Source of the DNA: Singulisphaera sp. GP187
GTDB taxonomy: Bacteria; Planctomycetota; Phycisphaerae; Phycisphaerales; SM1A02
Assembly (NCBI GenBank): GCA_945862215.1
Contig: CAMAXY010000016.1
Span: forward strand, 1 to 48,954
Length of the DNA stretch: 48,954 bases
Reading direction: 5' to 3'
The notes under the pieces are model-generated. The model was given only the letters and a program-made list of their open reading frames with translations, was not told the origin of the DNA and ran no database searches. How positions within the stretch are numbered: the first letter of the stretch is position 1; each line of letters starts with the position of its first letter. The position numbers and the translations under genes were made by a program. Below, in pieces: positions 19,431-32,253 of the stretch.

Positions 19431-19510
19431 AATTGCCAAGTGTAGGGTGTCTATAAAGATGGGCAAAGTGCGCCCAAAAATAAATTTATGAGAATTCTTG
19501 GCAACTTCAT

Positions 19511-19540
19511 TTGCATTCGAAATCAGGAATTCCATATTTC
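19511..19540 (+). promoter_or_regulatory. Possible promoter of a small RNA
   Basis: TTGCAT (19511-19516) and TATTTC (19535-19540) are spaced by 18 bases and are followed, about 30 bases further on, by a structured, terminated region with no convincing gene. The match to sigma-70 boxes is weak. Confidence 0.3.
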
Positions 19541-19546
19541 ATATGC

Positions 19547-19669
19547 AGTCGGTGAAGTGAACGACTGAGGAGGTAGAAAACGGATCGCGAATGTTTCGCG
19601 AACCGTACGAACAACCCTGGATCGGCCCCGCATCGGACCTGCCTCCCCGAGCGGGGCCTTTTTATTTTT
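19547..19669 (+). ncRNA. Candidate structured small RNA ending in a strong terminator
   Basis: Between coaD and the glycosylase gene lies a roughly 120-base segment with dense structure. One hairpin is ACGG-AT-CGCGAA, loop TGT, TTCGCG-AA-CCGT (19580-19606), a double stem with a symmetric internal loop. A second pairing is possible between GGAGGTAG (19569-19576) and CTGCCTCC (19639-19646), the latter lying in the loop of the terminator. The segment ends in a GC-rich terminator. No known RNA family was recognised; 6S, SRP and tmRNA features are not apparent. The 3' end is well supported, the 5' end is a guess, and function is unknown. Confidence 0.45.
19624..19669 (+). terminator. Strong rho-independent terminator
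   Basis: GGCCCCGC (19624-19631) pairs with GCGGGGCC (19651-19658) in an 8-bp GC stem, followed by TTTTTATTTTT. The U-tract lies on the plus strand, so it ends a plus-strand transcript upstream of the glycosylase gene, where no ordinary gene precedes it. Confidence 0.88.
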
Positions 19670-19738
19670 GCGTTGTTTGATCCCCCATAATCCACGATTG
19701 CACGCAAGCCTGATCCGCTAGATTCCTGCGTATTCAGG

Positions 19739-20536
19739 ATGAAACGTTTTCAAAATAAATCATCATCGCAGCCAGCATTGCAAGACGCGGCAGCGACTCT
19801 TGCGCACAAGTGCGGCGCAATAAAATTCAGCGCACCCGTGGCGTTCACATATAACCCGCTGGAATACGCATGGTCCGCGCACTGTGCATTTCTTGCGCGA
19901 GCGCAAATGCGTCCAACAGTTCTTTTCGTCGGCATGAATCCAGGACCGTTTGGGATGGCGCAAACTGGCGTGCCGTTTGGAGAGGTCGCTTCTGTGCGGG
20001 ACTTTCTCGGTATCGATGAACGCACCGTTCAAATCGGTGCGCCGATGCGAATGCATCCCAAGCGACCCGTCGAAGGATTTGCGTGCACGCGCAGCGAAGT
20101 CAGCGGCGCGCGCGTCTGGTCGTGGGCGCGCGAACGATTCGGTACCGCCGACGCATTCTTTCGTCATGCATTTATATGGAACTGGTGCCCGCTTGCGTTT
20201 ATGTCAGAGACGGGAGCGAATCTCACTCCAGATAAATTGCCGCGTGTCGGGCGAGGATCGGCGAGTGTTCGAGCGCTTGAGAGTGCGTGCGACGAAGCGC
20301 TCGCAGCTGCGATTGATGCGCTCGAACCAGAAAATGTCGTTGGATTTGGCGCATTCGCGGCAGATCGCGCGCAGCGAGTCATCGATGCGATGCCGTCACG
20401 CGCATCAGCCGCCGCGCGGCCGCCCGTTCATAAAGTTTTGCATCCAAGCCCAGCGAGTCCTGCGGCAAACCGAGGATGGGCGCCGCAAGTCGATCAGCAA
20501 CTTGCCGCGGCTGGAATTGTGTTTGGCGAGAAGTAA
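19739..20536 (+). CDS. Single-strand-selective uracil-DNA glycosylase (SMUG type)
   Basis: This 265-residue protein matches SMUG uracil-DNA glycosylases, which excise uracil and oxidised pyrimidines from DNA. Motif 1 is VGMNPGPFGMAQTGVPFGEV with the SMUG Asn in MNPG. Motif 2 is VLHPSPASPAANRGWAPQ, holding the His of the second catalytic loop. GFACTRSEVSGARVW also fits the family. The start ATG at 19739 gives a usual length. The gene lies 69 bases beyond the terminator of the candidate small RNA and converges with yhcG. It is the last gene before the accessory region, and its codon use resembles the core genes, so it is probably a housekeeping repair gene. Confidence 0.93.
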   Translation: MKRFQNKSSSQPALQDAAATLAHKCGAIKFSAPVAFTYNPLEYAWSAHCAFLARAQMRPTVLFVGMNPGPFGMAQTGVPFGEVASVRDFLGIDERTVQIGAPMRMHPKRPVEGFACTRSEVSGARVWSWARERFGTADAFFRHAFIWNWCPLAFMSETGANLTPDKLPRVGRGSASVRALESACDEALAAAIDALEPENVVGFGAFAADRAQRVIDAMPSRASAAARPPVHKVLHPSPASPAANRGWAPQVDQQLAAAGIVFGEK

Positions 20537-20632
20537 GAAGATGCGGGTGTTACGGATCTCCGTCGATTGCTGGCAGAAATCCACCACTTGCTGTCGTTTT
20601 TTTTGCACAAGACGCCACTTCGCGCATTCTCT

Positions 20633-21763
20633 TTACGCATTCTTTTCACTCTTCAATCGCACAAGTCTGACTGCTTGACGAAATTTGCGTTGAATTTTTT
20701 CTTTGGGCAAAACATTCAACTTGTAACTCGCAACGTGTATCCCACTCTTCTGCAGTTCGAGAAGTTCGATGTGTTCGTCACGTTTCCCTGCACAAAGAAT
20801 CATTCCCAACGGCGCGGCCTCGCCTGTTTGGCATGCGTGCTTTCGCAACCAACTGAGATACAACTCCATTTGCCCCTTATCTTCCGCTTCGAATTTACCC
20901 ATCTTCAATTCAATCGCAATCAATCGTCGCATTGATCGATGATAAAAAAGTAGATCGAGATAATAATCACGGTCATCAATTTGCATCCGCTGCTGCCGTG
21001 CAACGAAACAAAATCCAACGCCAAGTTCAAGGATGAACGATTCCATTTCACGCAGAATCGCAGACTCCGCATCTTTTTCAGAATAGGTGTCTTTCAAACC
21101 TAGGAAATCAAGAATATATGGATCACGAAAGACAATGTCAGGAGTGACTTTGTCACGAAGGCGAAGTTGTTTCAGTTCCATTGCCGCAAGTTTCGCAGGC
21201 TTTTTCGACAGCGCACTTCGTTCGAAAAGCATCGCCCCAATCTTCTTCTCAAGTGTGCGAGTGCTCCATCGCTCCACTCGACACAACTGCGAATAAAAGT
21301 CGCGTTTGATGGGATCCGTCATCGGAATAATCGCCTTGAAATGAGTCCATCCCAATTGTGTCCGCAGTGCGGACACAATCCTGTCATCTGGGAAAACCTC
21401 GGCAAATCGGATCATTCGAAACAGATTTCGCGTTCCAAACCCTCTTCCAAATTCCGATTCCAACTTCTCGCTGAGCACAGCCACAATTCGCTCTCCATAT
21501 TCACCTCGCTCACTTTGCAGAATGTCTTGATGAATCCGCCGTCCAATGTGCCAATAAAGTGTGGTGAGCCCTGCGTCCACTGCATGGGCGACTCCTTGGC
21601 GAGCCTTCAAAATCATTTTGCGCAACTCGCCCAAGAGCGCAGTGGACTTTGGCGCACCAACTGCACGCGTCGTCGAGCTCAGCGGAGAGCGAACTGCGAG
21701 CACAAATTGCTTGGACGAAACTCGCCGAACGATCGCACCGTCGATTGATTTTCGCTTCGCCAT
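20633..21763 (-). CDS. yhcG: PDDEXK nuclease family protein YhcG (DUF1016-type)
   Basis: This 376-residue protein has the two-part architecture of YhcG. An N-terminal helical DUF1016 region contains GLTTLYWHIGRRIHQD and SEKLESEFGRGFGTRNLFRM. The C-terminal PDDEXK nuclease domain contains YYLDLLFYHRSMRRLIAIELK, whose D and ExK supply the nuclease motif. Members are often found in genomic islands, sometimes beside restriction or toxin-antitoxin genes; the molecular role is not settled. The ATG at 21761-21763 gives a length at the upper end of the family, from an extra 35-residue N-terminus. It is the first gene of the accessory region, immediately followed on its 5' side by repeat element copy 1. 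Confidence 0.9.
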   Translation of the reverse strand: MAKRKSIDGAIVRRVSSKQFVLAVRSPLSSTTRAVGAPKSTALLGELRKMILKARQGVAHAVDAGLTTLYWHIGRRIHQDILQSERGEYGERIVAVLSEKLESEFGRGFGTRNLFRMIRFAEVFPDDRIVSALRTQLGWTHFKAIIPMTDPIKRDFYSQLCRVERWSTRTLEKKIGAMLFERSALSKKPAKLAAMELKQLRLRDKVTPDIVFRDPYILDFLGLKDTYSEKDAESAILREMESFILELGVGFCFVARQQRMQIDDRDYYLDLLFYHRSMRRLIAIELKMGKFEAEDKGQMELYLSWLRKHACQTGEAAPLGMILCAGKRDEHIELLELQKSGIHVASYKLNVLPKEKIQRKFRQAVRLVRLKSEKNA

Positions 21764-21869
21764 GACCAGAGGATCCTCCTGCGAAACGAGCCTATGAGTG
21801 ATAACGCGACTTTCTCTAAAAAACGAAAAAGCGCCACACTTTTCATCATCCAGATTGTGTGCAATTCCT

Positions 21870-21982
21870 GTTTACGGGCAGAAAGCGACACGCCGTTCGC
21901 GGACCCCCCTGTCTATTGCCTGTCTACGGGCAAAAATGATCCAAAAACGAGCGTTTTACGCCCGTAACCAGGGGGTTGGATG
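21870..21982 (+). repeat. Dispersed repeat element, copy 1
   Basis: It starts with a module GTTTACGGGCAGAAAGCGAC and continues to GCGGACCCCC. A 48-base block (21910-21957) follows that is identical to 28051-28098 in copy 3. ACGGGC (21936-21941) and GCCCGT (21960-21965) form an inner inverted repeat, and GACCCCC with GGGGGTT an outer one, so a nested cruciform or RNA hairpin is possible. It lies between yhcG and vapC and has no credible open frame. Confidence 0.85.
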
Positions 21983-22029
21983 TTCTCAACCACGCAGGAT
22001 CGACTCGTCGAGCGGCAGCGTCGACAAGT

Positions 22030-22458
22030 TCAAGACCCCAATCTCTGCGGCGAACTCTTGCTCCAATTCTCAATGCGCAGTCCAGCGACACGACGAAACT
22101 CGCGTTCGTTGTTGGTGATGAGAGTCACGCCGAGTGCCAAAGCATGGCTTGCGATGAGTGTGTCGAGGGGACCGATCGGTGTCCCCTTTCGCTCGAGCGC
22201 AGTCCGAACCATCCCATAGCACTCTGCCGCGATGTGGTCGAATGAAAGCACCGCAATGGGCGCGCAGAATTGCGCAAGGAGCAATTTGTGATACAGAGGC
22301 CGTCCAGACTTTTCTGCGCCAAATTGCAATTCTGCAAGCGCGATGCTCGAAATGGAGATTTGGTCGATGTCGTAACGACGCATGCGAGCTAAAATCTTGC
22401 TCGATCCAGTACGCAAGAATTCGATACAGATATTGGTGTCGAGCATGAAGCGAGTCAC
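22030..22458 (-). CDS. vapC: PIN-domain ribonuclease toxin VapC
   Basis: This 142-residue protein is a PIN-domain toxin. The acidic active-site residues occur in the expected order: Asp in FMLDTNICIEFL, Glu in ALAELQFGAEKS, Asp in GPLDTLIASHAL, and the final NNEREFRRV segment. VapC toxins cleave tRNA or rRNA when freed from VapB. It is encoded directly after vapB with an ATGA overlap (22455-22458), the usual antitoxin-toxin order. No truncation or missing catalytic residue is seen, so it should be active. It lies just inside repeat copy 1. Confidence 0.94.
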   Translation of the reverse strand: MTRFMLDTNICIEFLRTGSSKILARMRRYDIDQISISSIALAELQFGAEKSGRPLYHKLLLAQFCAPIAVLSFDHIAAECYGMVRTALERKGTPIGPLDTLIASHALALGVTLITNNEREFRRVAGLRIENWSKSSPQRLGS

Positions 22459-22733
22459 AGCCGTCGTCGCCGCTCTGCGCGCTTTGGTTCACCACGCGCT
22501 GGCAAAAAATCATCGTCAGCTTTACCCATTGCATCTGCGAGCAACTGCCAGGCACTTTCCTTTGGGAAGAGCAGCACAGCAGTGCCAATTCGCTTGATAC
22601 ACACTTCATCGTCGTCGAAGCGAAACTCTTTGGGAAGGCGAACCGCCTGACTCGCGCCATTGAGAAAGACCTTGGCTGTCGTGGACTTGCTGTTTGCTGC
22701 GCGTCGAGATGAAAGTCGTTTGATCGGTGGCAT
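22455..22733 (-). CDS. vapB: Antitoxin VapB (AbrB/SpoVT-type)
   Basis: This 92-residue protein has the VapB swapped-hairpin DNA-binding motif AKVFLNGASQAVRLPKEFRF, followed by a C-terminal toxin-binding tail ending in basic residues. The ATG at 22731-22733 is chosen because the longer frame runs into a palindromic operator and an RT fossil. About 15 residues precede the usual family start and are Ser/Arg-rich. It is translationally coupled to vapC. The palindrome 13 bases upstream is a good candidate for its own binding site, as autoregulation is the rule in the family. Confidence 0.92.
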   Translation of the reverse strand: MPPIKRLSSRRAANSKSTTAKVFLNGASQAVRLPKEFRFDDDEVCIKRIGTAVLLFPKESAWQLLADAMGKADDDFLPARGEPKRAERRRRL

Positions 22734-22745
22734 AGTGCTCTTTTT

Positions 22746-22769
22746 AGTATATATACCCGAGTATATACT
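22746..22769. promoter_or_regulatory. Operator-like palindrome upstream of vapBC
   Basis: AGTATATA (22746-22753) and TATATACT (22762-22769) form a perfect 8-base inverted repeat around an 8-base centre. Its AT-rich arms stand out in GC-rich surroundings, and the distance to the vapB start suits a VapBC autoregulatory site overlapping the promoter. Confidence 0.65.
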
Positions 22770-22810
22770 TTGACGAGCGATTGTCAAATGTTTCATGGCG
22801 CATTTCAACC

Positions 22811-22976
22811 TACGACACCGCCGAGGAAGATCTTGATCACATCGCCATTCAAAACATATTTGCGAGTTCAGGCAAATGCCGCCGCACGAGCAAGTGCTCG
22901 GTTCGATCTGCTCAATATCGAGAAGAAATTGCGCAACATCCAGTTCTTGCTGTTTGCCAGACGCCAGAGCCATGCT
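22811..22976 (-). pseudogene. Fossil of a DGR-type reverse transcriptase
   Basis: Two pieces of the live RT can be read on the minus strand. In one frame, ASGKQQELDVAQFLLDIE (22964-22911) aligns with [18 protein letters not shown] of the intact RT. In the next frame, ALARAAAFA-stop-TRKYVLNGDVIKIF (about 22897-22826) aligns with [24 protein letters not shown], the region with the first catalytic Asp. About 75 codons are missing between the pieces, there is a frame change and an in-frame TGA, and everything beyond motif A is lost. This is my own by-eye alignment, but two independent stretches match in the right order. It starts 17 bases after the end of hepT. Confidence 0.75.
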
Positions 22977-22992
22977 TGGCGCTCCTGTCAGA

Positions 22993-23331
22993 TCAGACCT
23001 GATCGAGTTCCGCTTGAATGATTGCGACGAGCGGTGGCAACTCGATCGTGGCCGCAGACCAAACGATGTCCGAATCGATTCCCCAGTATTGGTGAATCAC
23101 AAAATCGCGCATGCCCGCCATTGCCTTCCACGGAGCGCTGGCGAGTCGTACTCGAGTCGCTGGAGTGACCCCCTTCGCCGCCTCACCGATGATTGCGAAG
23201 TCGAACATCACTGCACGCAGGATCGTGTCGTCGTTCCTGAAGATTTCGTTCGTCATGCCTTTGATTCTGTTCTGGATCCGAGTGCCAGCGTCTGCGATGT
23301 CCCTCAATCTCGCGCTGTCGCTACGCGGCAT
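22993..23331 (-). CDS. hepT: HEPN-domain ribonuclease toxin HepT
   Basis: This 112-residue helical protein belongs to the HepT (DUF86) HEPN family, RNases neutralised by partner MNT nucleotidyltransferases. The catalytic Rx4HxY motif is complete as RDFVIHQY, and the preceding AMFDFAIIGEAAKGV and following DIVWSAATIELPPLV segments are typical. I chose the ATG at 23329-23331, which overlaps the end of mntA by 11 bases; a start at 23362-23364 would add 11 residues. The pair sits between fossils of a second DGR, and the RT fossil begins 17 bases after its stop codon. It appears intact. Confidence 0.9.
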   Translation of the reverse strand: MPRSDSARLRDIADAGTRIQNRIKGMTNEIFRNDDTILRAVMFDFAIIGEAAKGVTPATRVRLASAPWKAMAGMRDFVIHQYWGIDSDIVWSAATIELPPLVAIIQAELDQV

Positions 23332-23614
23332 AGCGAACTTCCCCAAGTACAGCATCGCGCACATCCGCCTTCAGACCGCGCGGCGTCACAACATCAACAG
23401 GACAACCGAACGCTTCTTCAAGCAATTGTTTGACGGAGATCAAATCAAAGAGACTGCCCTTGTCCGCAAGTTGGACGAGGCAATCGACATCCGAATTGGA
23501 TCGTGAAGTACCGCGCGCTACAGAGCCGAAGATGCCGATGCGCACCACTCGCAGCGCGGCGAGTTCTGGGCGAATGCGGTCGATTATGGCGAGTGCTTCG
23601 GCGAGTGAAGGCAT
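23321..23614 (-). CDS. mntA: Minimal nucleotidyltransferase antitoxin MntA
   Basis: This 97-residue protein is an MNT nucleotidyltransferase. The catalytic GSx10DxD motif is present exactly as GSVARGTSRSNSDVD, followed by CPVDVVTPRGLKADVRD. Family members neutralise HepT by adding AMP units to the tyrosine of its Rx4HxY motif. The start chosen is the ATG at 23612-23614 (MPSLAEALAII); the longer frame reads into the avd fossil in a different phase. The overlap with hepT supports a two-gene operon in which the antitoxin is made first. A second, broken MNT gene lies at 27592, so the island has carried two unrelated copies. Confidence 0.92.
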   Translation of the reverse strand: MPSLAEALAIIDRIRPELAALRVVRIGIFGSVARGTSRSNSDVDCLVQLADKGSLFDLISVKQLLEEAFGCPVDVVTPRGLKADVRDAVLGEVRYAA

Positions 23615-23679
23615 GTGACGAGAATATCCAAGTTCGTAGCCCTTCGCCCGCTGCCTTTCGCCCAATGATCCAACCAGAT

Positions 23680-23960
23680 CCCACCTGATTGCCAAGATCG
23701 ACTTGAAGTGCCTCCACATAGACCGCTGATTTGTTGTTGAACAATTCCATTTCGTTGGCCAACCGCCCCAGAAGCCGCGCCACTTGGAGTCGGCGATTGG
23801 CGTATTCGAGTGATCGCGCTCGGTCTGCACTTTCGAGCGGCGAAGGCACGCGCAGCCTCACTTTGGAGAAAATCCGCCCTGATCGGTGCACTTTTTCCGC
23901 CGGCGCCGAGTTTGTGAATCATCCAGAGCACGATGTCGCCGCAGAGCAAGTGTTTGTGCA
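23680..23960 (-). pseudogene. Fossil of an avd gene
   Basis: The minus strand encodes RARSLEYANRRLQVARLLG and then NEMELFNNKSAVY followed by LQVDLGNQVG, the C-terminal half of Avd. The coding DNA is identical to that of the live avd over 97 bases. The upstream part, DIVLWMIHKLGAGGK, resembles the Avd start DILKWIIPKVGKF but lies in another frame, so a frameshift or deletion separates the halves and the middle region is unrecognisable. Downstream, the frame runs on without the Avd C-terminus. A functional short four-helix protein starting at 23891 cannot be fully excluded. Confidence 0.7.
23719..23815. repeat. 97-bp perfect direct repeat, copy A (in the avd fossil)
   Basis: Bases 23719-23815 are identical to 25450-25546 (offset 1731) while sequence on both sides is only loosely similar or unrelated. 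Perfect identity inside a decayed gene suggests recent exchange with the live copy rather than slow common descent. Confidence 0.92.
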
Positions 23961-24147
23961 GTGCGTTGCACGAAAAGCTGTGCACCAAAAACTGCGCGCG
24001 CCTTAGCACCACCGCGGGCTGGATTCCCAGATCGCGGCGGCGACTACATCGATTCGGATCGCGGCGATTCGCCAGCGCGCTTGGCGCGAGCCGATGCCAT
24101 CAACCCTGGCTTGATCCCTGGACTCCTTGCCGGCTATTCCTGCGCAA
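23961..24147. other. Non-coding stretch between the DGR template and the avd fossil
   Basis: I see no gene here. It contains small GC-rich dyads (for example GCGCGCTTGGCGCG around 24077) and the stop of the RT frame lies at its right edge. It could include the 3' end of the template RNA, which in other DGRs extends beyond the template repeat. Confidence 0.4.
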
Positions 24148-25407
24148 TCACTTGCAACAGTTCGAGGCGAGGCGTACTGACGGCACGGAACCCGATATTG
24201 TTGTTGGCGTTGTTCGGGTTGTTGTTGTTGCGCTGCGAGCCACGGCAGTTGTTGGAGTTGTTGTTCCAGTTGCCGCCGCGCAGCAGACGATTCGTGTCGG
24301 TGTTGGGATCACGCCGCCACAAGCATAACACCCCTCAGACTGGCGCAGCAATCCAGCTCTCGCCAACACCGTGTCAATGACTCGCGGACTGGAAGCGTGC
24401 GATGCGTGCCCGACCCATGCCGCGACCCTCGCCCGCAGCGACTCTTTGGTGACAATCCCCTCAGCAACCTGCCTGCCCACTGCGCGCAGCCGGCGTGTGG
24501 CGCGCACCACGCTGTTGTGCTTCAGCCGTCGCTGCCCCTGCTTGAGCGTGAAGCCGAGAAACGGGATGGTTGACTTGGTCGCATGCACGCCGCCTTTGCG
24601 CGCGTGAAGGCTCAGCCGCAGAGTTCCCAAGACTTCTTCGATCTTTGCGCGCAAATCCCACAGCGCGGCTCGATCGTCGCTGAAAACCAAAAAATCGTCG
24701 CAGTATCGGATGTATTCCCCGAATCCGAACTGGTCCATGACTGCGTGATCGAGGCGATCGAGTAACACATTGGCAAGAAACTGTGAAGTCTGGTTGCCTA
24801 TGGGCAGTCCACGTCGCCGAAAGAGCGGCGTGAAAAGATCATCGCCCGAATACCACGCGCTCACTGATTCCTGCGGATTGCTGCCATCGATGATCTGATC
24901 GAGCACCCGCAGGAACGGCTCATCGCAGACCGCTCGGCGCACCTCGCCCTTCACGACCTCATGATCGATGCTGGGAAAGAACTTGACGACATCGCCGCGC
25001 AACACGAAGGCGCGTGTGCGAGAGAGGTGCGCGGAGCGCGCCAGAGCAAGGTGCGTTCCCTTGCCAACTCGGCAGGCATATGAGTGAGCAACGAATCGGC
25101 GCTCGAAATGCGGCTCCAATATCGAAACGAGTGCGTGATGCACGACGCGATCGCGAAACGGCGCGGCGCTGATCATCCGTGGCTTTGGTTCGAGGATGTA
25201 AAACGACTTGTACTCCCCGGGTTGCCAAACTCCGCTGGCAAGTTCGCCAGCGAGTCGAAAGCACTCTGGTTCGAGGTTCAGCAGAAACTTGGCCACATCG
25301 GGCTTGCGCCTCTTGCCGCGCGCCGCATTCCGTGCGCTCTCGATCAGGTGGCCTGAGTCACAAAGGATCTTGAAGAGTTCGCCATTTCGCCCGATGCCTT
25401 TCGCCAT
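24148..25407 (-). CDS. DGR reverse transcriptase with a template-encoded C-terminus
   Basis: This 419-residue reverse transcriptase makes the mutagenic cDNA of the DGR. Catalytic Asp139 is in [14 protein letters not shown]. Motif 4 is [13 protein letters not shown] (IGNQTSQ, residues 203-209), the [IVL]GxxxSQ form specific to DGR enzymes, where group II introns have QGxxxSP. The active-site YCDD is at 235-238, followed by the thumb region [12 protein letters not shown]. The ATG at 25405-25407 overlaps the end of avd by 64 bases. From about residue 372 the frame runs through the template repeat, giving a Thr-rich tail ([17 protein letters not shown]) unlike any RT domain. Whether this tail is tolerated or functional is unknown. 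Confidence 0.96.
24177..24292 (-). other. DGR template repeat (TR)
   Basis: This 116-base segment aligns without gaps to the variable repeat at 25855-25970 (offset 1678). In the target gene frame it would read [20 protein letters not shown] and onward, 20 of its residues being Asn, most of them AAC codons. AAC-rich templates are typical because mutated adenines then give many different residues while stops are avoided. About 35 positions are adenines on the coding strand; 15 of these differ in the variable repeat and no other base does. The shared 17 bases at its 3' end (24193-24177) are GC-rich and match the place of the IMH sequence. Confidence 0.96.
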
Positions 25408-25739
25408 GCTCCCACCTGGTTTCCGAGGTCGACCTGCAAGCCTGCCAGGTAGACCGCTGATTTGTTGTTGAACAATTCCATTTCGTTGGCCAACCGCCCC
25501 AGAAGCCGCGCCACTTGGAGTCGGCGATTGGCGTATTCGAGTGATCTCGCTCGATCCGCGCCGCGCGTGTACTGCGCGTGGACGAGTTCTTCAAGCACAT
25601 CGAGATGCGCTGCCTCGATGCGCGCGCCAAGACCGTAACGAACTGTTCTTGGAAACTTTCCGACCTTGGGAATAATCCACTTCAGAATATCGCTCGCCAA
25701 GATCACTGCCGCTGGCTCAGAGGGTTGTGCATTTGCCAT
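25344..25739 (-). CDS. avd: DGR accessory variability determinant Avd (four-helix bundle)
   Basis: This 131-residue helical protein matches the Avd family of small basic four-helix bundles that form pentameric barrels, bind the RT and the template RNA, and are needed for mutagenic homing. Recognisable parts are DILKWIIPKVGKFPRTVRYG in the first helix, ARIEAAHLDVLEELVHAQYT in the second, and the EYANRRLQVARLLGRLANE helix. The ATG at 25737-25739 has no clear ribosome site but lies just downstream of the hairpin and an A-rich stretch. Its end overlaps the RT start by 64 bases in another frame. The central 97 bases are identical to a fossil copy at 23719-23815. Confidence 0.92.
   Translation of the reverse strand: MANAQPSEPAAVILASDILKWIIPKVGKFPRTVRYGLGARIEAAHLDVLEELVHAQYTRGADRARSLEYANRRLQVARLLGRLANEMELFNNKSAVYLAGLQVDLGNQVGAWRKASGEMANSSRSFVTQAT
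25450..25546. repeat. 97-bp perfect direct repeat, copy B (in the live avd)
   Basis: This is the partner of 23719-23815, inside the intact avd gene. Homology continues weakly beyond both ends at protein level (LQVDLGNQVG), but nucleotide identity stops sharply after base 25546. Confidence 0.92.
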
Positions 25740-25769
25740 TTTTAAAAAATTTTTGTTTTTGTTTTCGTT

Positions 25770-25798
25770 TTCGCTGCTGCCCTTGCGGCAGCAGCGAA
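25770..25798. other. Hairpin/cruciform downstream of the variable repeat
   Basis: TTCGCTGCTGCC (25770-25781) and GGCAGCAGCGAA (25787-25798) form a perfect 12-bp stem with a 5-base loop. On the target's strand it starts 57 bases after the end of the variable repeat and is followed by A-rich, not U-rich, DNA, so it is not a normal terminator. In the Bordetella phage DGR a hairpin or cruciform at the same place is needed for efficient target recognition. A polypurine tract lies between it and the target stop codon. Confidence 0.8.
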
Positions 25799-25844
25799 GG
25801 AGACGGAATCGGAGAAAAGGGAAGAGGAAAAAGAGAAAAGGGAA

Positions 25845-27284
25845 TTACGGAGCCCTGACGGCACGGAACCCGAAATAGTAGTTGGCGTAGCTCGGGTAGA
25901 GGTAGCCGCGCTGCGAGCCACGGCAGTAGTTGGAGTTGTAGTCCCAGTTGCCGCCGCGCAGCAGACGATACGAACCAGTCGCAGGTCCGGTGGGGTTGGT
26001 CACGCTTCCTGATGAATAAGGCCCATACCAATCCTGGCACCACTCCCAAACATTGCCAAGCGTGTCATAGAGACCCAAGGCGTTTGGAAGTTTGCCGGCA
26101 ACTGGTTGAGTGCCGTAGTTAGTCCAGTTTTGGTAGTACCACGCAATTGCGTTTACTTCGCCATAACGCGCAGTCGTAGTCCCTGCTCGACATGCGAATT
26201 CCCATTCAGCTTCGGTTGGCAAGCGCAAACCAGTCGCACTATTGAAACTTTGAATCGTGTCCCAAGAAACATTTTCAACAGGGTTGTTTGGCTGCCCAGA
26301 GAAAGCACTCGGATTGCTCCCCATCTTCGCCTGCCACTGAGCCTGAGTCACTTCGGTTTTGCCCATATAAAAAGCATTTGTCAAAGTCACTTGATGAGCA
26401 GGGCTTTCATCGCCGCCACACTCCGAATCGCCAGGACTGCATCCCATCATGAATGTCCCACCTGGCACCAACAGCATCTCGATGTTGCTTGAAGTGTCCT
26501 TGATTCTCCACGCAAATCCACTTGCCACAATCGCAGCACGAAGATTCGCGTCGGTCACAACCGCAGGGTCTGGCGCGGCTTCCAAGAGCGTTGCCCACGC
26601 GGGAACAACGATGGAGATATATGTAAACGCTCCACTTGCCGTCGCAGTTCCCTTCGCGCCTGTGACTTCGACTGATGCTGGTCCGACTGATCCTGCTGGA
26701 GTCACGGCAGTCACCGTGGTTGAATTCACTGCAACGACATCAGTCGCAGATACTCCGCCAACTTTGACGCTCGATGCACCGTTCAGAAAAGACCCAGTGA
26801 TCGTGATCGCAGTACCACCAGAAAAAATCCCTTGATTGGGAGAGACTGATGCAATCGAAAGTTGAACATATGTGAAAGGAATTGGAGCGAGAAGTGTTCC
26901 TGCTGGGGTGACGACTGAAATCGGTACTTCACCAGCTGAGCCTGCAGGTGTGACTGCCTTGACAAGCGTTGGCGATAGAACTTGCAGACTGGTGCAATCA
27001 ACTCCGCCAATCTTCACGGCAGTTGTTCCAGTCAGATTGGTTCCGTTTATCGTGATTTGAGTGCCGCCCAAGATCGAACCTTGCAGCGGAGTCACGGATG
27101 TAATCGTGCCTGGGCAAACTCCCCAAGCACCAAGAACGACCGCGAGGTCGACGCCGTTGACAAGACCATCGCCATTCGTATCAGCGCCGCCACAACTCCC
27201 CTGCCCCTGCGCCGAAGAAGTTGAAAGACCGAAAGTCATAGTGACTGCGGCGACGAGTGAAAGCAGAATTTTTAGCGATTTCAT
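25845..27284 (-). CDS. DGR-diversified secreted protein: dockerin-like repeat, two IPT/TIG domains and an FGE (C-type-lectin-like) domain
   Basis: This 479-residue protein is the DGR target. The ATG at 27282-27284 follows AGGAGT and opens a Sec signal peptide (MKSLKILLSLVAAVTMTFG). A dockerin-type calcium repeat comes next (DTNGDGLVNGVDLAVV). Two IPT/TIG immunoglobulin-like domains (ITSVTPLQGSILGGTQITI; SIASVSPNQGIFSGGTAITI) occupy about residues 55-215. From about residue 235 there is a formylglycine-generating-enzyme domain (GGTFMMGC, PVENVSWDT, RLPTEAEWEFACRAG, LGNVWEWCQDW), a C-type-lectin-like fold used as a scaffold by many DGR targets. The last 38 residues are the variable region, with Tyr, Asp, Gly, Leu, Ser and Phe at template-Asn or Ile codons. 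It is probably a surface or secreted ligand-binding protein; the ligand is unknown. Confidence 0.95.
   Translation of the reverse strand: MKSLKILLSLVAAVTMTFGLSTSSAQGQGSCGGADTNGDGLVNGVDLAVVLGAWGVCPGTITSVTPLQGSILGGTQITINGTNLTGTTAVKIGGVDCTSLQVLSPTLVKAVTPAGSAGEVPISVVTPAGTLLAPIPFTYVQLSIASVSPNQGIFSGGTAITITGSFLNGASSVKVGGVSATDVVAVNSTTVTAVTPAGSVGPASVEVTGAKGTATASGAFTYISIVVPAWATLLEAAPDPAVVTDANLRAAIVASGFAWRIKDTSSNIEMLLVPGGTFMMGCSPGDSECGGDESPAHQVTLTNAFYMGKTEVTQAQWQAKMGSNPSAFSGQPNNPVENVSWDTIQSFNSATGLRLPTEAEWEFACRAGTTTARYGEVNAIAWYYQNWTNYGTQPVAGKLPNALGLYDTLGNVWEWCQDWYGPYSSGSVTNPTGPATGSYRLLRGGNWDYNSNYCRGSQRGYLYPSYANYYFGFRAVRAP
25855..25970 (-). other. DGR variable repeat (VR)
   Basis: This is the 3' end of the target gene that receives mutated cDNA. 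Compared with the template, the plus-strand differences lie at template positions 24196, 24199, 24202, 24211, 24213, 24220, 24222, 24223, 24226, 24228, 24229, 24250, 24262, 24265 and 24292. Every one is a T on the plus strand, that is an A in the template. Thirteen codons change: eight Asn to Tyr or related, plus Asp, Gly, Leu, Ser and one Ile to Phe. Framework residues such as GGNW, CRGSQR and GFRAV are untouched. Confidence 0.96.
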
Positions 27285-27489
27285 ATATGGACTCCTGAAG
27301 TTGATCAACCGGAAAACCTGAACTGCTTTCAAGATAACCCCAAGAAGCGCAAAGTCCATATTTCTTTTACAGAAACTGGAATTGCGAAAATCCGATTCAA
27401 ACCGCTCTAAGAAGGTTTTTTGCGAAGTAAAAGCTTGCTGATTTTCGTCGTTTTGCGGCCGACAGCCTTTACGGCCGACAGCGCTTGGG

Positions 27490-27590
27490 GTTTACGGGCA
27501 GAAAGCGACATGTCGTTTGCGGACCCCCGCTTACGGGCAGATCGGAGTACTGCAACCTTACGATTTGCCCGTAACAAAGGGGGTCGGATG
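27490..27590 (+). repeat. Dispersed repeat element, copy 2
   Basis: It shares the first module GTTTACGGGCAGAAAGCGAC to GCGGACCCCC with copies 1 and 3 but carries a different second half. GACCCCC (27522-27528) and GGGGGTC (27579-27585) form an outer inverted repeat; TTACGGGCA (27531-27539) and TGCCCGTAA (27566-27574) an inner one. Two more related units, TTTGCGGCC and TTTACGGCC, precede it at 27452 and 27469. It abuts the start of an MNT gene remnant. Confidence 0.85.
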
Positions 27591-27591
27591 A

Positions 27592-27866
27592 TTCGCCGCC
27601 GCATGCAAGCGCCATGGAGTGTCGTTCATGGAACTCGTAGTTTCAGCGGCTCGTGAAGATTTTGACCCAGCCCGAAGCGACGTCGACGTGCTCGTCGACT
27701 TTCCAGATGGAACGACTGATTTGTTTGGATCATTCTTGGGACTTCGCGAGAGGACCTCGCTGCAATCCTCGCGCGCCCAGTCGATGTGATCACCATCCGC
27801 GGGGTTCGAAATCCGCTGCTCCTCGACTCGCTTCGGCGCGATGCGATTCTGCTCTATGCGGCGTGA
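27592..27866 (+). pseudogene. Broken MNT-type nucleotidyltransferase gene
   Basis: The sequence reads KRHGVSFMELVVSAARED and on through FDPARSDVDVLVDF and LFGSFLGLRE, then in another frame EDLAAILARPVDVITIRGVR to LLYAA and a stop. This is a typical minimal nucleotidyltransferase. The frame break lies at CGCGAGAGGACC (27745-27756), where a 2-base AG duplication explains it. The active-site GS is also lost (LFGSAARG expected, LVVSAARE found), so the protein is dead twice over. Repeat copy 2 lies directly upstream. It is not the same gene as the intact mntA at 23321. Confidence 0.82.
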
Positions 27867-27964
27867 TCACCGCTAGCGATGACATCGTCGATCCGCGGCT
27901 TGTGTATGGACTCACGATCACCCGACTCCCGGCTCTCATCGCTTCAATTCGTAGTGTCATGTAA
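27863..27964 (+). pseudogene. C-terminal remnant of a HEPN partner gene
   Basis: Just after the MNT remnant a short frame reads ITASDDIVDPRLVYGLTITR and then LPALIASIRSVM before a stop. The DIV-x-LPALI-IR pattern resembles the end of HepT proteins (compare DIVWSAATIELPPLV in the intact one). The rest of the gene, including the catalytic Rx4H motif, is missing. The call rests on a short match plus the expected position after an MNT gene. Confidence 0.5.
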
Positions 27965-28009
27965 AGGTGTCGCGACCTATGCGACTATGAGGAGAGACTG
28001 CCGCTTGAG

Positions 28010-28110
28010 GTTTGCGGGCAGAAAGCGACACGCCGTTTGCGGACCCCCCCTGTCTATTGCCTGTCTACGGGCAAAAATGATCCAAAAACGAGCGTTTTTT
28101 GCCCGTAAAC
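28010..28110 (+). repeat. Dispersed repeat element, copy 3
   Basis: It is the closest relative of copy 1, with 48 identical bases at 28051-28098. Its inner inverted repeat is longer, ACGGGCAAAAA (28067-28077) with TTTTTGCCCGT (28096-28106), and could form a hairpin. The outer arm differs: the right side is a C-run where copies 1 and 2 have GGGGGT. It ends 17 bases before the stop of the dehydratase gene, marking the right edge of the island. Confidence 0.85.
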
Positions 28111-28127
28111 CCCCCCGCCACCCCCGG

Positions 28128-28634
28128 TTATTTTTTCGGTAGTAAGCCGCCGAGAATTGCCCTGAAATTCTCGCCAAAGACAAAGTTGTGTTCTGGCAAA
28201 TCGAGACCCGCACGATTCTGATCAACATGACTGAAAATAATTTCAGTACGACCGATGTCGATCCATCCTCCACCGCGGTGATCAAACCTGCTGATCGTTC
28301 CGATGGTTGATGCGCCCATGTCATCGATGCGATCAATCTTCGCGTCATAACGAATCGATTGACCAGGAAAAACATCGCTCTCGAAAATTGCCTCGGTCAC
28401 CTTCGCCAAGATCACCTTCTCTTTGAATTGCCGCACACTGCCAACCAAGATTCCTGCGGTCTGCGCCATACCTTCAAGCATCAAACTTGCGGGCATCATT
28501 GGTTGCGATGGACCATCATCGCCCTCTGGGAAATGTTGGTGCAAGTGATCTTCCGCAAGTGAAACATTCTTGATCGCAACAAGCCTTGCATTGGGCTCGT
28601 GCAATAAAATGGCGTCAATCCAAAGCCAGCGCAT
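28128..28634 (-). CDS. FabZ/FabA-like 3-hydroxyacyl-ACP dehydratase (hotdog fold), gene C of the cassette
   Basis: This 168-residue hotdog-fold protein resembles beta-hydroxyacyl-ACP dehydratases. The catalytic His is in HQHFPEGDDG and the acidic residue in MMPASLMLEGMAQTAG, where classical FabZ has PGVLxxEAMAQ. A loop insertion (EGDDGPSQP) is present between them. Such enzymes remove water from 3-hydroxyacyl-ACP in fatty-acid or polyketide-type synthesis. It is the last gene of a three-gene operon behind an acyl carrier protein and another dehydratase-like gene; the start ATG is 15 bases from the ACP stop. The specific product is unknown. Repeat element copy 3 lies just downstream. Confidence 0.85.
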   Translation of the reverse strand: MRWLWIDAILLHEPNARLVAIKNVSLAEDHLHQHFPEGDDGPSQPMMPASLMLEGMAQTAGILVGSVRQFKEKVILAKVTEAIFESDVFPGQSIRYDAKIDRIDDMGASTIGTISRFDHRGGGWIDIGRTEIIFSHVDQNRAGLDLPEHNFVFGENFRAILGGLLPKK

Positions 28635-28649
28635 GCGTTACGCCGCGCG

Positions 28650-29042
28650 TCAGGCGGGCGCTCCTGCTTTCAACTTGTAGGCAACAAACTTGACGAGGCT
28701 GTCGACCGTGAAAACCTCGGAGACCTTTTCCAGCTTGGGATCAGCGGAAAATGCGGTGAAATCGACATGCGGCATTTTCTCTTTCAAGAGCGCAAGGCCA
28801 GCTGCGTTGACCACACCATCGGTGACATATTTGGGATCATTGATGTTGTCTGGGAAAAGTTCTCCCTGACCAATCTTGAAACCAAACGCCTTCTCGATAC
28901 GGAAAACAATATCCAGAAAGTCGATCGACTCGGCGTGCAAATCGGTCGTCAAGCGTGCAGTTGGAGTGACTTCGTCATCATCCACACCAAGTGCATCAAC
29001 CAAAACTCCCTGAACTTTTTTGAAAATCTCATCGTGACTCAT
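28650..29042 (-). CDS. Acyl carrier protein with a C-terminal extension
   Basis: The first 85 residues are an acyl carrier protein: four helices with the phosphopantetheine serine in DLHAESIDFLDIVFRIEKAF, in place of the usual DSLD. The 130-residue length exceeds the 75-80 of housekeeping AcpP, owing to about 45 extra residues (MPHVDFTAFSADPKLEKVSE onward). The ATG at 29040-29042 lies 12 bases after an AGGAGG site; a TTG two codons earlier is possible. It is placed between two dehydratase-like genes, so it is probably a dedicated carrier for a special acyl pathway rather than the general fatty-acid ACP. coaD and panB in the window supply its cofactor pathway. Confidence 0.87.
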   Translation of the reverse strand: MSHDEIFKKVQGVLVDALGVDDDEVTPTARLTTDLHAESIDFLDIVFRIEKAFGFKIGQGELFPDNINDPKYVTDGVVNAAGLALLKEKMPHVDFTAFSADPKLEKVSEVFTVDSLVKFVAYKLKAGAPA

Positions 29043-29061
29043 TGACAAATTGAACCTCCTG

Positions 29062-29520
29062 TCAGAATTGAAGCGTCCGTACAAGACGCATTGTAAAGCG
29101 TCCACTTACTGCCGTATCCGACGACGATATCGCAGACCCCGCAGATGCGGCAGTCGCAATCTGTGAATGTCGCAATACCGTCGCACTGCCGCGGAAGACA
29201 ACGCTTCCATCGTCTGTTTCCTTGTCAACGATCACTTCGCTGCGCAATCCTTCGCCGGGTCGCACGAAGTTGCCATACCGAAGAGCGCGAACTCCCCCAA
29301 GCACCATTCGCCGTGGAGCCCCATCACCCTTAGCTCGGTCGCGCGCTTCCAAGACCAAGCGGGCGGATTGCACCAGAGCCTCCAGCATGAAGACCCCTGG
29401 CAAGACATGGAACCCCGGAAAGTGATCCTGCAGATATTCCTCGGCCAAAGTCACATTTTTCAATGTGACGGCTCTATCTGGGCCGCATTCAAGAATCTGG
29501 TCTACAAGTCGAAAGTGCAT
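29062..29520 (-). CDS. FabZ-like 3-hydroxyacyl-ACP dehydratase (hotdog fold), gene A of the cassette
   Basis: This 152-residue protein has the FabZ segments LQDHFPGFHVLPGVFMLEAL with the catalytic His and Glu both present, followed by VQSARLVLEA and the strand VLGGVRALRYGNFVRPGE. I chose the ATG at 29518-29520 (MHFRLVDQILEC); the track-length frame begins with a TTG three codons earlier. Its C-terminus has a Ser/Ala-rich insertion (TAASAGSAISSSD) before the last strand. It begins the dehydratase-ACP-dehydratase operon and is divergent from ftsK, 51 bases away. Two dehydratases around one ACP may act as a heteromer or on successive intermediates; this is inference. Confidence 0.87.
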   Translation of the reverse strand: MHFRLVDQILECGPDRAVTLKNVTLAEEYLQDHFPGFHVLPGVFMLEALVQSARLVLEARDRAKGDGAPRRMVLGGVRALRYGNFVRPGEGLRSEVIVDKETDDGSVVFRGSATVLRHSQIATAASAGSAISSSDTAVSGRFTMRLVRTLQF

Positions 29521-29571
29521 GAATCCCAAGGCTAATTGATTCAGGGCGGCTTGTCCTGCCGATAATCAAGA

Positions 29572-32253
29572 ATGGCAAAGAAGTCGCCCATGGCTATCGC
29601 ACGCCCGAGCAACAGCTCGGGAATTCTCCCTCCCGCATCAATGACGAGGAAAATCCTCTGGTTGGCAGGTGCCGCATTGTGGCTTTATGCCACAGCTTGC
29701 CTCCTGAGTTTTTCCAGCTTCGACTGGCCGAGCCACACGGTTGCTGTGCAGCAATACCCGCCGAACAATTGGGGCGGACGAGTTGGCGCAGTGCTGGCGT
29801 ATGGACTCTATGAAGCACTTGGATTTGGAATATGGGTGCCAGTGCTTTGCGGGGGATACGCACTTGGTGTGATCGCGACTGGCAGAGCGATACCACATCC
29901 GATTGTTCGATCGATTGGTGCGTGCATCGCAATGCTCTCGGTCTCGGCCTTACACGCTCTTTGGTTTCCGCACTTCGGATCTTTGGCCGGAGCGGAAGCG
30001 GGATTGGTTCCAGGATGGATGGCAAATCAGATTTGGGGACGCTTCGGTCCCATCGGATCGAACATCATTGTTCTTTCAGGTTGTCTGATTGGATTCATCG
30101 TGGCAGTTGATGAAATTGTTATGGCTCTCCCGGGTGCGCTTGTGAAAGCTGTGCAGGCACTCGATCCAGTTTGGAATGTTGACTACAAGGGAATGCTCGG
30201 CCGTGTCTTTGGCGGTCGAAAGGGAACTCGTCTCCAACCAGCAATGATTGGTGTTGATGGCGACGAGTTGAATGATGGGGCGGACGTTGCGGAAAAGGAA
30301 ATTGTGGAGAGTGCGCTGGATCGTCGTCGTCGTCTGGTGCGAGAATCGCGTCAGGCGGCGACGGCGGCCAGCCTTGGTGTTGTCATCGAATCAGATGATG
30401 ACGAAGAAGTGAGCGAGGCATATTCGCCCGCTGCGAAGACGAAAGAAGCAAAATCCAAAGCAGTAAAAGAGTCAGATTCCCCTGATATTTTAGCAGAAAT
30501 CGCAGATGCGGAAGAGGTCGAAGCAGCGCGCCCTGCACTGAGTGCGCAAGATCTTCGAGAACGAATTGCGCGCATGCCTGTGCGAATGGCGGGCATAACC
30601 AAAGTGCTTGCACGCGACGAAGACATTCCGCGCGAAGTGGATTACACCGGATACAAGTTTCCAACGCTTGACCTTCTGGAAGAGCCCGAGGAAAATTTCT
30701 CTGCGCGTATGGAAGGTTTCGTGCGCGAGCAAGCTGGAGTGCTGACAGAAACTCTGCGGACATATCAACTCGATGGTGAAGTTGTTGGAATTGAAAGTGG
30801 TCCAGTCGTCACGCTCTATTCTGTAGAGCTCGCACCGGGAACTCGCGTCGCTCGTTTGGAAACGATTGCCAAGGACATCGCGCGCGCGCTCAGCGCTCCA
30901 AACATTCGCATCATTCCAAATATGACCGGCAAGACCGCGGTCGGAATCGAAGTGCCAAATCGTCAGAAGGAAAAAGTTCGCCTGCGAGAATTGATGTCCA
31001 GCGGACACGCCGAAGGAATGCGACTGCCAATGTTCTTGGGCAAAGACAGTTCTGGCGAGCCTTTGGTTCTGGACTTGACCCGCATGCCTCACGTGTTGAT
31101 CGCGGGAACAACTGGATCTGGAAAGTCCGTCTGCATGAACAGCATCATCATGAGTTGGATCTATACCAAGCGACCAGATGAATTGAAGTTGGTCTTGGTC
31201 GATCCGAAGATGGTCGAGATGAGTCAGTTTGCGGACATCCCCCACTTGATGGCTCCAGTCGTGACGGACATGAATCACGCAGCGGGAATTTTGGAATGGA
31301 CCGTCAGCAAGATGGAAGAGCGATACGAACTCTTCAGATCGACCGGAGTTCGCGACATTTTGGGTTACAACGCGCTTGGAGAAGAGGCAATTTTCGCCAA
31401 GTTGAACCCCGTTGACGACGCTGCAAAGGCACGAATCCCCAAGAAATTGCCATATATGGTCTTTGTGATCGACGAGTTGGCGGACCTTATGTTGACCAAC
31501 AAGGAAGTCGAAACGCACATCGTGCGCATCGCTCAGAAGGCACGCGCGGTGGGCATCCACTTGGTGCTTGCCACACAGCGACCTCAGGCGAATGTTGTGA
31601 CAGGACTGATTAAGGCGAATATGCCCTGCCGAATCGGATTCAAAGTGGCAAGTGGTATGGACAGTCGAATTGTGCTCGACCAAAAGGGCGCAGAATTGCT
31701 CTTGGGCCAAGGCGACATGATGGTGGTGACTCCATCGGGCAGTGGCGAACTTCGACGATGCCAAGGCACGCTTGTCACCGACAATGAAACCCGCAAGGTG
31801 GTCAACTTCTTGAAGGATGTTGCCGCTCCAAGCTTCGAGCGAAGTCTGCTTGCTGTAAAGAGTTCCGCTCATAATTCTGGGCAAGGTTCTGGCCATGGGA
31901 ATCCTGGCGAAGGTGGCGAAGTTGATCCCAATGAACGCGATCCAATGTTCGACCGAGCGGTTGACATCCTCATCGAAACTGGTCGTGGATCGGTCAGTCT
32001 TTTGCAGCGCCGACTTGCGATTGGATATGGCCGAGCATCGCGATTGGTCGACCAGATGTCGATGGCTGGAATTCTCTCCGACCACAAGGGTTCGGTCGCT
32101 CGCGAAGTGTTGATCACAGGCGACGATTGGGCGCGCATGAAAGCGATGGAGGCTGGCGGAGAAGATGCCGACGGGATGAGTGGCGGGATGAGTGGCGAGA
32201 GAGACGGAGAGAGAGACGGAGAGTTGACCGTGGAGCCAGTCTCGGACGAGTGA
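29572..32253 (+). CDS. ftsK: DNA translocase FtsK/SpoIIIE
   Basis: This 893-residue protein is the FtsK translocase that pumps DNA through the division septum. Four or so membrane helices occupy residues 25-200 (for example ILWLAGAALWLYATACLLSF). A charged linker follows, then the motor: PHVLIAGTTGSGKSVCMN (Walker A, near residue 511), KLVLVDPKMVEMSQF, MVFVIDELADLMLT (Walker B), HLVLATQRPQANVVTG. The C-terminal winged-helix gamma domain (RGSVSLLQRRLAIGYGRASR) should read KOPS sites. The end carries a repeat-rich acidic/Gly tail (GMSGGMSGERDGERDGE) absent from most FtsK. A short terminator-like stem follows. The start used is ATG 29572; internal ATGs at residues 7 and 24 are possible. Confidence 0.96.
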   Translation: MAKKSPMAIARPSNSSGILPPASMTRKILWLAGAALWLYATACLLSFSSFDWPSHTVAVQQYPPNNWGGRVGAVLAYGLYEALGFGIWVPVLCGGYALGVIATGRAIPHPIVRSIGACIAMLSVSALHALWFPHFGSLAGAEAGLVPGWMANQIWGRFGPIGSNIIVLSGCLIGFIVAVDEIVMALPGALVKAVQALDPVWNVDYKGMLGRVFGGRKGTRLQPAMIGVDGDELNDGADVAEKEIVESALDRRRRLVRESRQAATAASLGVVIESDDDEEVSEAYSPAAKTKEAKSKAVKESDSPDILAEIADAEEVEAARPALSAQDLRERIARMPVRMAGITKVLARDEDIPREVDYTGYKFPTLDLLEEPEENFSARMEGFVREQAGVLTETLRTYQLDGEVVGIESGPVVTLYSVELAPGTRVARLETIAKDIARALSAPNIRIIPNMTGKTAVGIEVPNRQKEKVRLRELMSSGHAEGMRLPMFLGKDSSGEPLVLDLTRMPHVLIAGTTGSGKSVCMNSIIMSWIYTKRPDELKLVLVDPKMVEMSQFADIPHLMAPVVTDMNHAAGILEWTVSKMEERYELFRSTGVRDILGYNALGEEAIFAKLNPVDDAAKARIPKKLPYMVFVIDELADLMLTNKEVETHIVRIAQKARAVGIHLVLATQRPQANVVTGLIKANMPCRIGFKVASGMDSRIVLDQKGAELLLGQGDMMVVTPSGSGELRRCQGTLVTDNETRKVVNFLKDVAAPSFERSLLAVKSSAHNSGQGSGHGNPGEGGEVDPNERDPMFDRAVDILIETGRGSVSLLQRRLAIGYGRASRLVDQMSMAGILSDHKGSVAREVLITGDDWARMKAMEAGGEDADGMSGGMSGERDGERDGELTVEPVSDE

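Follow-up and report, generated by a model that had tools for sequence, protein, structure and literature searches.

The 48,954-nucleotide stretch analysed here (hereafter the window; contig CAMAXY010000016.1 of Singulisphaera sp. GP187) carries a retroelement whose template repeat (TR), variable repeat (VR), accessory gene avd and reverse transcriptase (RT) identify it, on sequence grounds, as a diversity-generating retroelement (DGR). With a probability of roughly 0.86, it is an Avd/RT-type DGR that writes secreted FGE genes both in cis and in trans. We favour this reading because the TR and the VR differ at adenines only, the divergence between VRs is biased to adenine positions, the non-adenine bases of the repeats are homogenised, some repeats are mosaics of two templates, and hairpins are found at the 3' ends of the targets. 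The RT would copy a template RNA, misreading it at adenines, and the resulting cDNA would be substituted for the 3' end of genes for secreted FGE proteins, the neighbouring gene in cis and several elsewhere in trans, the window RT and TR being the probable writers of these remote targets.

The retroelement and its neighbouring target

The TR (24177–24292, minus strand) is AAC-rich and contains 35 adenines and 81 other bases. It aligns without gap over 116 bases with the VR (25855–25970, minus strand), as had been reported in a preliminary description made from the letters alone, and all 15 mismatches between the two fall on TR adenines (hypergeometric p = 1.2e-9), which bears out the adenine-only difference claimed there. 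The likeness ends directly past the repeat on both sides. Eighteen of the TR adenines are at the first codon position, 17 at the second and none at the third; 13 codons are changed, in agreement with the earlier count, and 19 are able to change. The order of the genes, target, Avd and RT, was also given correctly.

The target gene (25845–27284, minus strand) encodes 479 aa. Pfam matches confirmed two TIG stretches (PF01833) and an FGE-sulfatase domain (PF03781, 2e-45) that includes the VR, and inspection by eye suggested a signal-like N-terminus and an EF-hand/dockerin-like motif. The dockerin-like repeat proposed in the preliminary description thus stands as an N-terminal motif seen by eye, but no dockerin model of Pfam matched at E ≤ 0.001. 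The best solved relative of the target is a Treponema denticola variable protein (2y3c, 4e-32), and by the matches to PF03781 and 2y3c the VR lies at the 3' end of an FGE-type (C-type-lectin-fold) gene. A structure model of the target reached a mean pLDDT of 58.2, with the TIG part alone confident and the FGE part unusable. The protein may be a surface binder; binding partners, prey or phage as the purpose of its diversification are guesses.

The avd gene (25344–25739, minus strand) overlaps the RT start. Its product was recognised by NF033474 DivGenRetAVD (59.7 bits, cut-off 80) and PF22296 (29.6 bits, cut-off 40), with both scores below the curated cut-offs. The RT open reading frame (ORF; 24148–25407, minus strand, 419 aa) matches RVT_1 (3.5e-20) and carries IGNQTSQ (residue 203) and YCDD (residue 235), so that both identifications made earlier hold. 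RTs of DGRs carry the motif IGxxxSQ. Identity to brt of BPP-1 is 32%, and the best solved relative is 8ub7, which we take to be the BPP-1 enzyme. Homology to relatives extends to about residue 353; the remainder of the frame reads through the TR, no stop codon being found ahead of it (24148–24300). An RT/TR overlap as a conserved trait was ruled out, since the stop precedes the TR in all seven relatives examined, at 358–374 aa.

The segment directly 3' of the TR (24100–24176, minus strand) is conserved in nine loci. Its predicted fold is a hairpin whose loop reads GUGA; at 7 of the 16 predicted pairs, both partners are altered in one sequence or more. Its folding was not clearly better than that of shuffled sequences in three of four single sequences, the window copy among them. 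Together these results give moderate evidence for a candidate part of the template RNA. An Rfam search of positions 22000–30000 gave no match at E ≤ 1, and no tRNA was found in the window.

Remote targets and templates across the genus

The window genome (G000) is a draft metagenome-assembled genome of 2.79 Mb in 112 contigs, 93.5% complete. Matches to the TR were found in 13 places, the TR itself included, and matches to FGE numbered 29, one of them again the TR. When the other 28 FGE domains were compared with the templates of the genus, 12 had at most nine non-adenine mismatches, four had 11–14, nine had 19–30 and three were unalignable over most of their length. Twelve of the 28 therefore end in a clear template-derived repeat, the majority on contigs other than that of the window. 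The best template of these 12 was the window TR in six cases (four of them close), the template of another species in five, and that of a second DGR in one. Adenine and non-adenine mismatches to the window TR were 15 and 0 for the cis VR, 19 and 3 for C52, 22 and 2 for C53 (with a 3-base insertion), 24 and 2 for C30 (with a 6-base insertion), 23 and 8 for C62a, and 27 and 9 for C18. C52, C53 and C30, with 2–3 non-adenine mismatches out of 81, thus represent several remote FGE-type targets for one TR. Pooling the 13 VRs of the window genome, each against its own best template, 271 of 454 adenine positions and 68 of 1051 non-adenine positions differed.

These remote, template-like VRs rule out a single-target reading. 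The statement that the element is aimed at a TIG/FGE protein is correct for the cis target but too narrow, as dispersed FGE genes bear such repeats too; nor is the architecture of the target unusual, as had been thought, many secreted TIG/FGE-like genes being found in the genus. Some frames hold more than one FGE domain: four lie in 1526 aa on G000:C110 (L136), L096 is a further case, and G000:C56 (L015) has two repeats in 819 aa, all three being possible multi-repeat targets.

Across genomes, 51 VR-like repeats were compared, 13 of them from G000; they were found by similarity to templates, a selection that favours good fits. The set omits weaker or partial matches (for example G006:C95, G017:C66, G010:C105, G013:C4, G041:C36 and the C110 domains), as well as single matches in G009, G038 and G048. 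For 45 of the 50 VRs with sequence available downstream, the best template was matched with no more than nine non-adenine mismatches. The RT adjoins the template in G013, G016, G023 (same family as the window genome) and others. Four remote VRs of G016 differ from its own TR at 0, 0, 1 and 2 of 80 non-adenine positions. Five repeats of the window genome (C62b, C4, C111, C56a and C18b) have 4–7 non-adenine mismatches to the G016 template versus 14–17 to their own, and for C24 the better match is the template belonging to a DGR of a second kind (4 of 86, versus 19 of 79 for its own template).

The window and G016 templates differ at 13 non-adenine positions, and most VRs of both kinds are uniform in type there. 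Four repeats from three genomes were single-switch mosaics of the two templates. In C52, the 5' edge is of the G016 type and the remainder of the window type (p = 0.007). G012_C76b (p = 0.007) and G012_C229 (p = 0.009) have a window-type body with a G016-type 3' edge, and G008_C29 a G016-type body with a window-type 3' edge (p = 0.003). Five more mixed rows were not significant as mosaics (the G013 TR, p 0.58; G018_C2, 0.12; G005_C15, 0.75; G000_C62a, 0.18; G010_C110, 0.05). The simplest reading of the mosaics would be that a gene last written from one template was then overwritten by the other, the leftover edges marking the homing tract.

Templates may replace one another in evolution, old targets staying behind, open to capture by a new template. 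We tentatively propose, at slightly less than even odds, that a DGR carried on a mobile toxin–antitoxin island changes or swaps its template between species and strands its old targets, some of which the new template later captures, mosaic repeats being left as marks of the homing tract, with an intact 3' DNA hairpin deciding which FGE genes are writable. The VRs of foreign template could instead have been written by a second, co-resident DGR absent from the 93%-complete assembly, rather than by an earlier or exchanged template. Two RT kinds do occur in each of G016 and G002, contigs with DGRs often break at repeats, and a relic of a second avd gene (23640–23834, minus strand; 150 bases at 89% identity) lies beside the TR. 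However, the window genome gave just a single match in a search for RT, and for avd a single gene besides the relic. VRs of G005 and G008 fit the G016 template (1–2 of 80 non-adenine mismatches) in genomes where no full RT match was found, and the mosaics require two templates on one gene, though not the loss of one. We therefore regard a co-resident writer as rather doubtful.

Three observations in these genomes are added for the record. Two cassettes of G005 are decayed: on C5 (L083, 4603–5281) a VR is followed by hairpins and an RT fragment, and on C15 (L090) a VR is followed by an avd fragment. In addition, the VR region of G005:C15 is nearly identical to that of G012:C184, from another species of the genus (98% over 227 bases), and similar to that of G023:C17, from another genus (91% over 167 bases). 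Transfer, a frozen target or a binning error are possible explanations of this likeness.

Divergence of the repeats, activity and downstream hairpins

The preliminary description had proposed to look for variation confined to template adenines among strains. Carried out across species in place of strains, this check supported it: in 12 of 15 pairs of related VRs the differences were biased to TR adenines (p ≤ 9e-4). Between the C24 repeat of G000 and its G012 relative, 21 of 30 adenine positions differed versus 8 of 86 others, with 114 of 1737 differing in the flank. The corresponding figures were 20 of 36 versus 1 of 80 for G005_C11 and G012_C215, and 21 of 36 versus 0 of 80 for C16 and C102 within G016. 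Pairs fitting different templates diverged at non-adenine positions also (for example 19 of 35 versus 14 of 81 for G000_C16 and G005_C11).

Several points weigh against a DGR that writes these genes. The remaining three of the 15 related pairs showed hardly any difference. Between the C30 repeat and its G012 counterpart, only 4 of 122 VR positions and 18 of 323 flanking positions differed, so that this remote target is almost unaltered since its lineage parted from that of a close relative and looks frozen; two further VR pairs were without any adenine difference, and some targets are therefore likely to be frozen. To these are added the Avd scores, the RT frame running through the TR, the selection by similarity of the repeats compared, and the location of C52, C53 and C30 at contig ends of a draft assembly. 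These breaks arise because the contigs end within the FGE gene, in sequence common to other targets.

An element recently dead in this lineage, its VRs being a record of past writing, would account for part of this, and we consider it possible, if on balance unlikely. The frozen C30 pair, the RT reading through the TR, unlike in the seven relatives, the avd relic and the degraded cassettes of the genus, such as the RT fragment of G005, are all compatible with it. On the other hand, the RT and Avd frames are open, the catalytic YCDD is present, and the cis VR has no mismatch to the TR at its 81 non-adenine positions. The element may still be active; in that sense the 'apparently intact' of the preliminary description is provisional.

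Hairpins were found 3' of the VRs. In the window, a candidate target hairpin (25770–25798, unstranded) has a perfect 12-bp stem and a 5-base loop and lies 56 bases 3' of the VR, a place common to the hairpins of remote targets. Two hairpin sequences of other targets were searched in 21 genomes (G000–G012 and eight of the order, about 64 Mb by listed sizes; G013–G018 were left out). TCCGCGGCCTTCGCCGCGGA, with one mismatch allowed, gave 11 copies and GCAGGCTCCGCCAAGCGGAGCCTGC, with two mismatches allowed, gave five; all 16 copies (11/11 and 5/5) are located 25–208 bases 3' of a VR and on the same strand, adjacency being judged by eye from coordinates. The reversed control patterns of both gave zero matches in the same genomes. 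The two sequences are unrelated to each other, and the window stem, in the same region, is unrelated to either.

In the window genome, a stem score of at least 8 within 130 bases 3' was found for the four VRs with at most three non-adenine mismatches and not for the other nine. More generally, perfect stems of at least 8 followed 16 of 50 VRs versus 7 of 134 other ORF ends (G016_C74, the 51st VR, had no downstream sequence). Stem length fell with the number of non-adenine mismatches (rho −0.45, p 0.001, related rows being treated as independent), and stems of at least 8 were present after 14 of the 19 VRs that had three or fewer such mismatches, versus 10 of 31 others. This is a trend only, and the hairpin was rejected as a strict genus-wide predictor of targets; it may nonetheless license a gene as a target.

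The hairpins might simply be ordinary transcription terminators of FGE genes, with no role in target choice. They are placed past the stop codon, and T-rich stretches were seen by eye after some of them. Terminators of this kind would not be expected to have both hairpin sequences only 3' of VRs in 21 genomes, to be more frequent after VRs than after other ORF ends, or to shorten as the repeat departs from its template, and we judge this explanation unlikely.

The remote VRs could also be drifted copies of the cis gene that were never written in trans, the targets being homologous over the whole gene. Repeats were compared with the gene directly upstream in 53 pairs, obtained from 15 of 17 VRs picked among the 51 for low non-adenine mismatch, a choice that favours the non-adenine result. 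In all 53 the non-adenine bases were less divergent, and the adenine positions more divergent, than the upstream gene, and 49–86% of adenine positions differed, which makes drift very improbable. Hypervariability of the FGE genes through diversifying selection or gene conversion, without a DGR, would suit a family of this size (29 matches including the TR) but can be practically dismissed, given the adenine-only pattern beside an RT, an Avd and a TR and the 19–30 non-adenine mismatches that separate nine of the genome's 28 FGE domains from their best template.

The island and related systems

The DGR lies in an insertion of 7.47 kb (20542–28008, unstranded) that is absent in G012:C166 and G002:C83. 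In the empty site of G012:C166, window positions 19493–20541 are joined to 28009–30953 (96.3% and 98.0% identity); G002:C83 shares the left edge, but about 245 bases separate the two sides there. G012 has no RT-core match yet contains window-type VRs, and DGR machinery and targets can therefore separate. The GC content of the island is slightly shifted (0.541 versus 0.527). The flanks are chromosomal genes (FtsK, FabA-like), viral-contig relatives number seven at 34–39%, and the listed phage matches reach at most 37%, so that a phage origin is unsupported.

A palindromic repeat resembling miniature inverted-repeat transposable elements (MITEs) marks the right edge of the island (28009–28110, unstranded), with further copies at 21862–21975 and, partial, at 27482–27531. 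The window genome has nine copies, two at the island plus this third, partial one; over G000, G002, G008 and G012 there are 27, of which 14 are located no farther than about 300 bases 3' of a TIG/FGE-like gene. The other 13 are not near a target-like gene in the stretches read, so that the repeat was rejected as an exclusive marker of FGE genes. Also within the island, all on the minus strand, are a YhcG/DUF1016 PDDEXK nuclease gene (20633–21763), a PIN-domain gene (22030–22458) that forms with a MazE-like antitoxin ORF, below cut-off, the interval 22030–22973, and an MntA/HepT-like toxin–antitoxin pair (22993–23614; HepT at 22993–23364, MntA within the ORF 23321–23830). A frame-broken relic of an MntA-like nucleotidyltransferase gene (27620–27870; PF01909, 5.2e-7, the reading being joined by eye) is found in the stretch that separates the target from the right edge.

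A literature search, made on titles and abstract openings with thin coverage of subscription papers, found none dealing with this planctomycete element, with mosaics of templates or with a confinement of hairpins to remote targets. DGRs with several targets, with remote ones, with different types of template and with targets left behind have already been described (PMC4891356, PMC10907252, PMC6642488, PMC7517822). One large survey used a method that, by its own statement, is blind to remote targets (PMC8144416), and multi-target systems may thus be under-counted. Some 50 repeats come from this genus and its kin. They involve several templates, and the targets among them may be intact, decayed or mosaic, which amounts to a natural experiment on the properties that turn a remote gene into a DGR target, on the time for which a target stays active and on the consequences of replacing a template.

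With BPP-1 (PMC3240598), the element shares the Avd, RT, TR and VR parts, a hairpin 3' of the VR and an RT related at 32%. BPP-1 needs this hairpin, the stem structure of which matters and the stem sequence does not. The phage has one target, whereas many chromosomal ones are found here; its hairpins lie 4–34 bp past the VR and have GRNA loops, whereas those described here lie about 16–60 bases past it, with GCAAG, CTTC or CAA loops. Thiohalocapsa PB-PSB1 (PMC10907252) is similar in having multiple targets, for some of which activity in trans is the best explanation, together with degenerate loci and MITE-like repeats at DGR loci; its nine loci have 15 targets of conflict-system type, in contrast to the secreted TIG/FGE proteins and the several templates across the genus described here. 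Cyanobacterial DGRs (PMC7517822) also have remote targets at gene 3' ends, for which cruciforms were suggested as a reason; there this is a suggestion only, whereas in the 21 genomes searched here the hairpins occur only at the 3' ends of VRs.

The closest known system is the DGR of T. denticola (PMC4891356), with FGE-type variable proteins of the TvpA type. There, one TR can serve as many as seven targets, remote targets occur and TRs fall into distinct types. Targets left over from another TR type, or from DGRs since lost, are reported as well, and this precedent led us to reject leftover VRs of another template as a novelty. The words "chimer" and "hairpin" do not occur in the text of that paper accessible to us, whereas mosaic repeats and hairpins are described here. 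The planctomycete element works like the T. denticola one, but the cassette type differs: the accessory gene of T. denticola, annotated as helicase/RNaseD (HRDC), is located between TR and RT, whereas the accessory gene here is Avd-like and precedes the RT, with the TR after the RT. The planctomycete DGR is thus a known kind of system with unusually rich comparative material.

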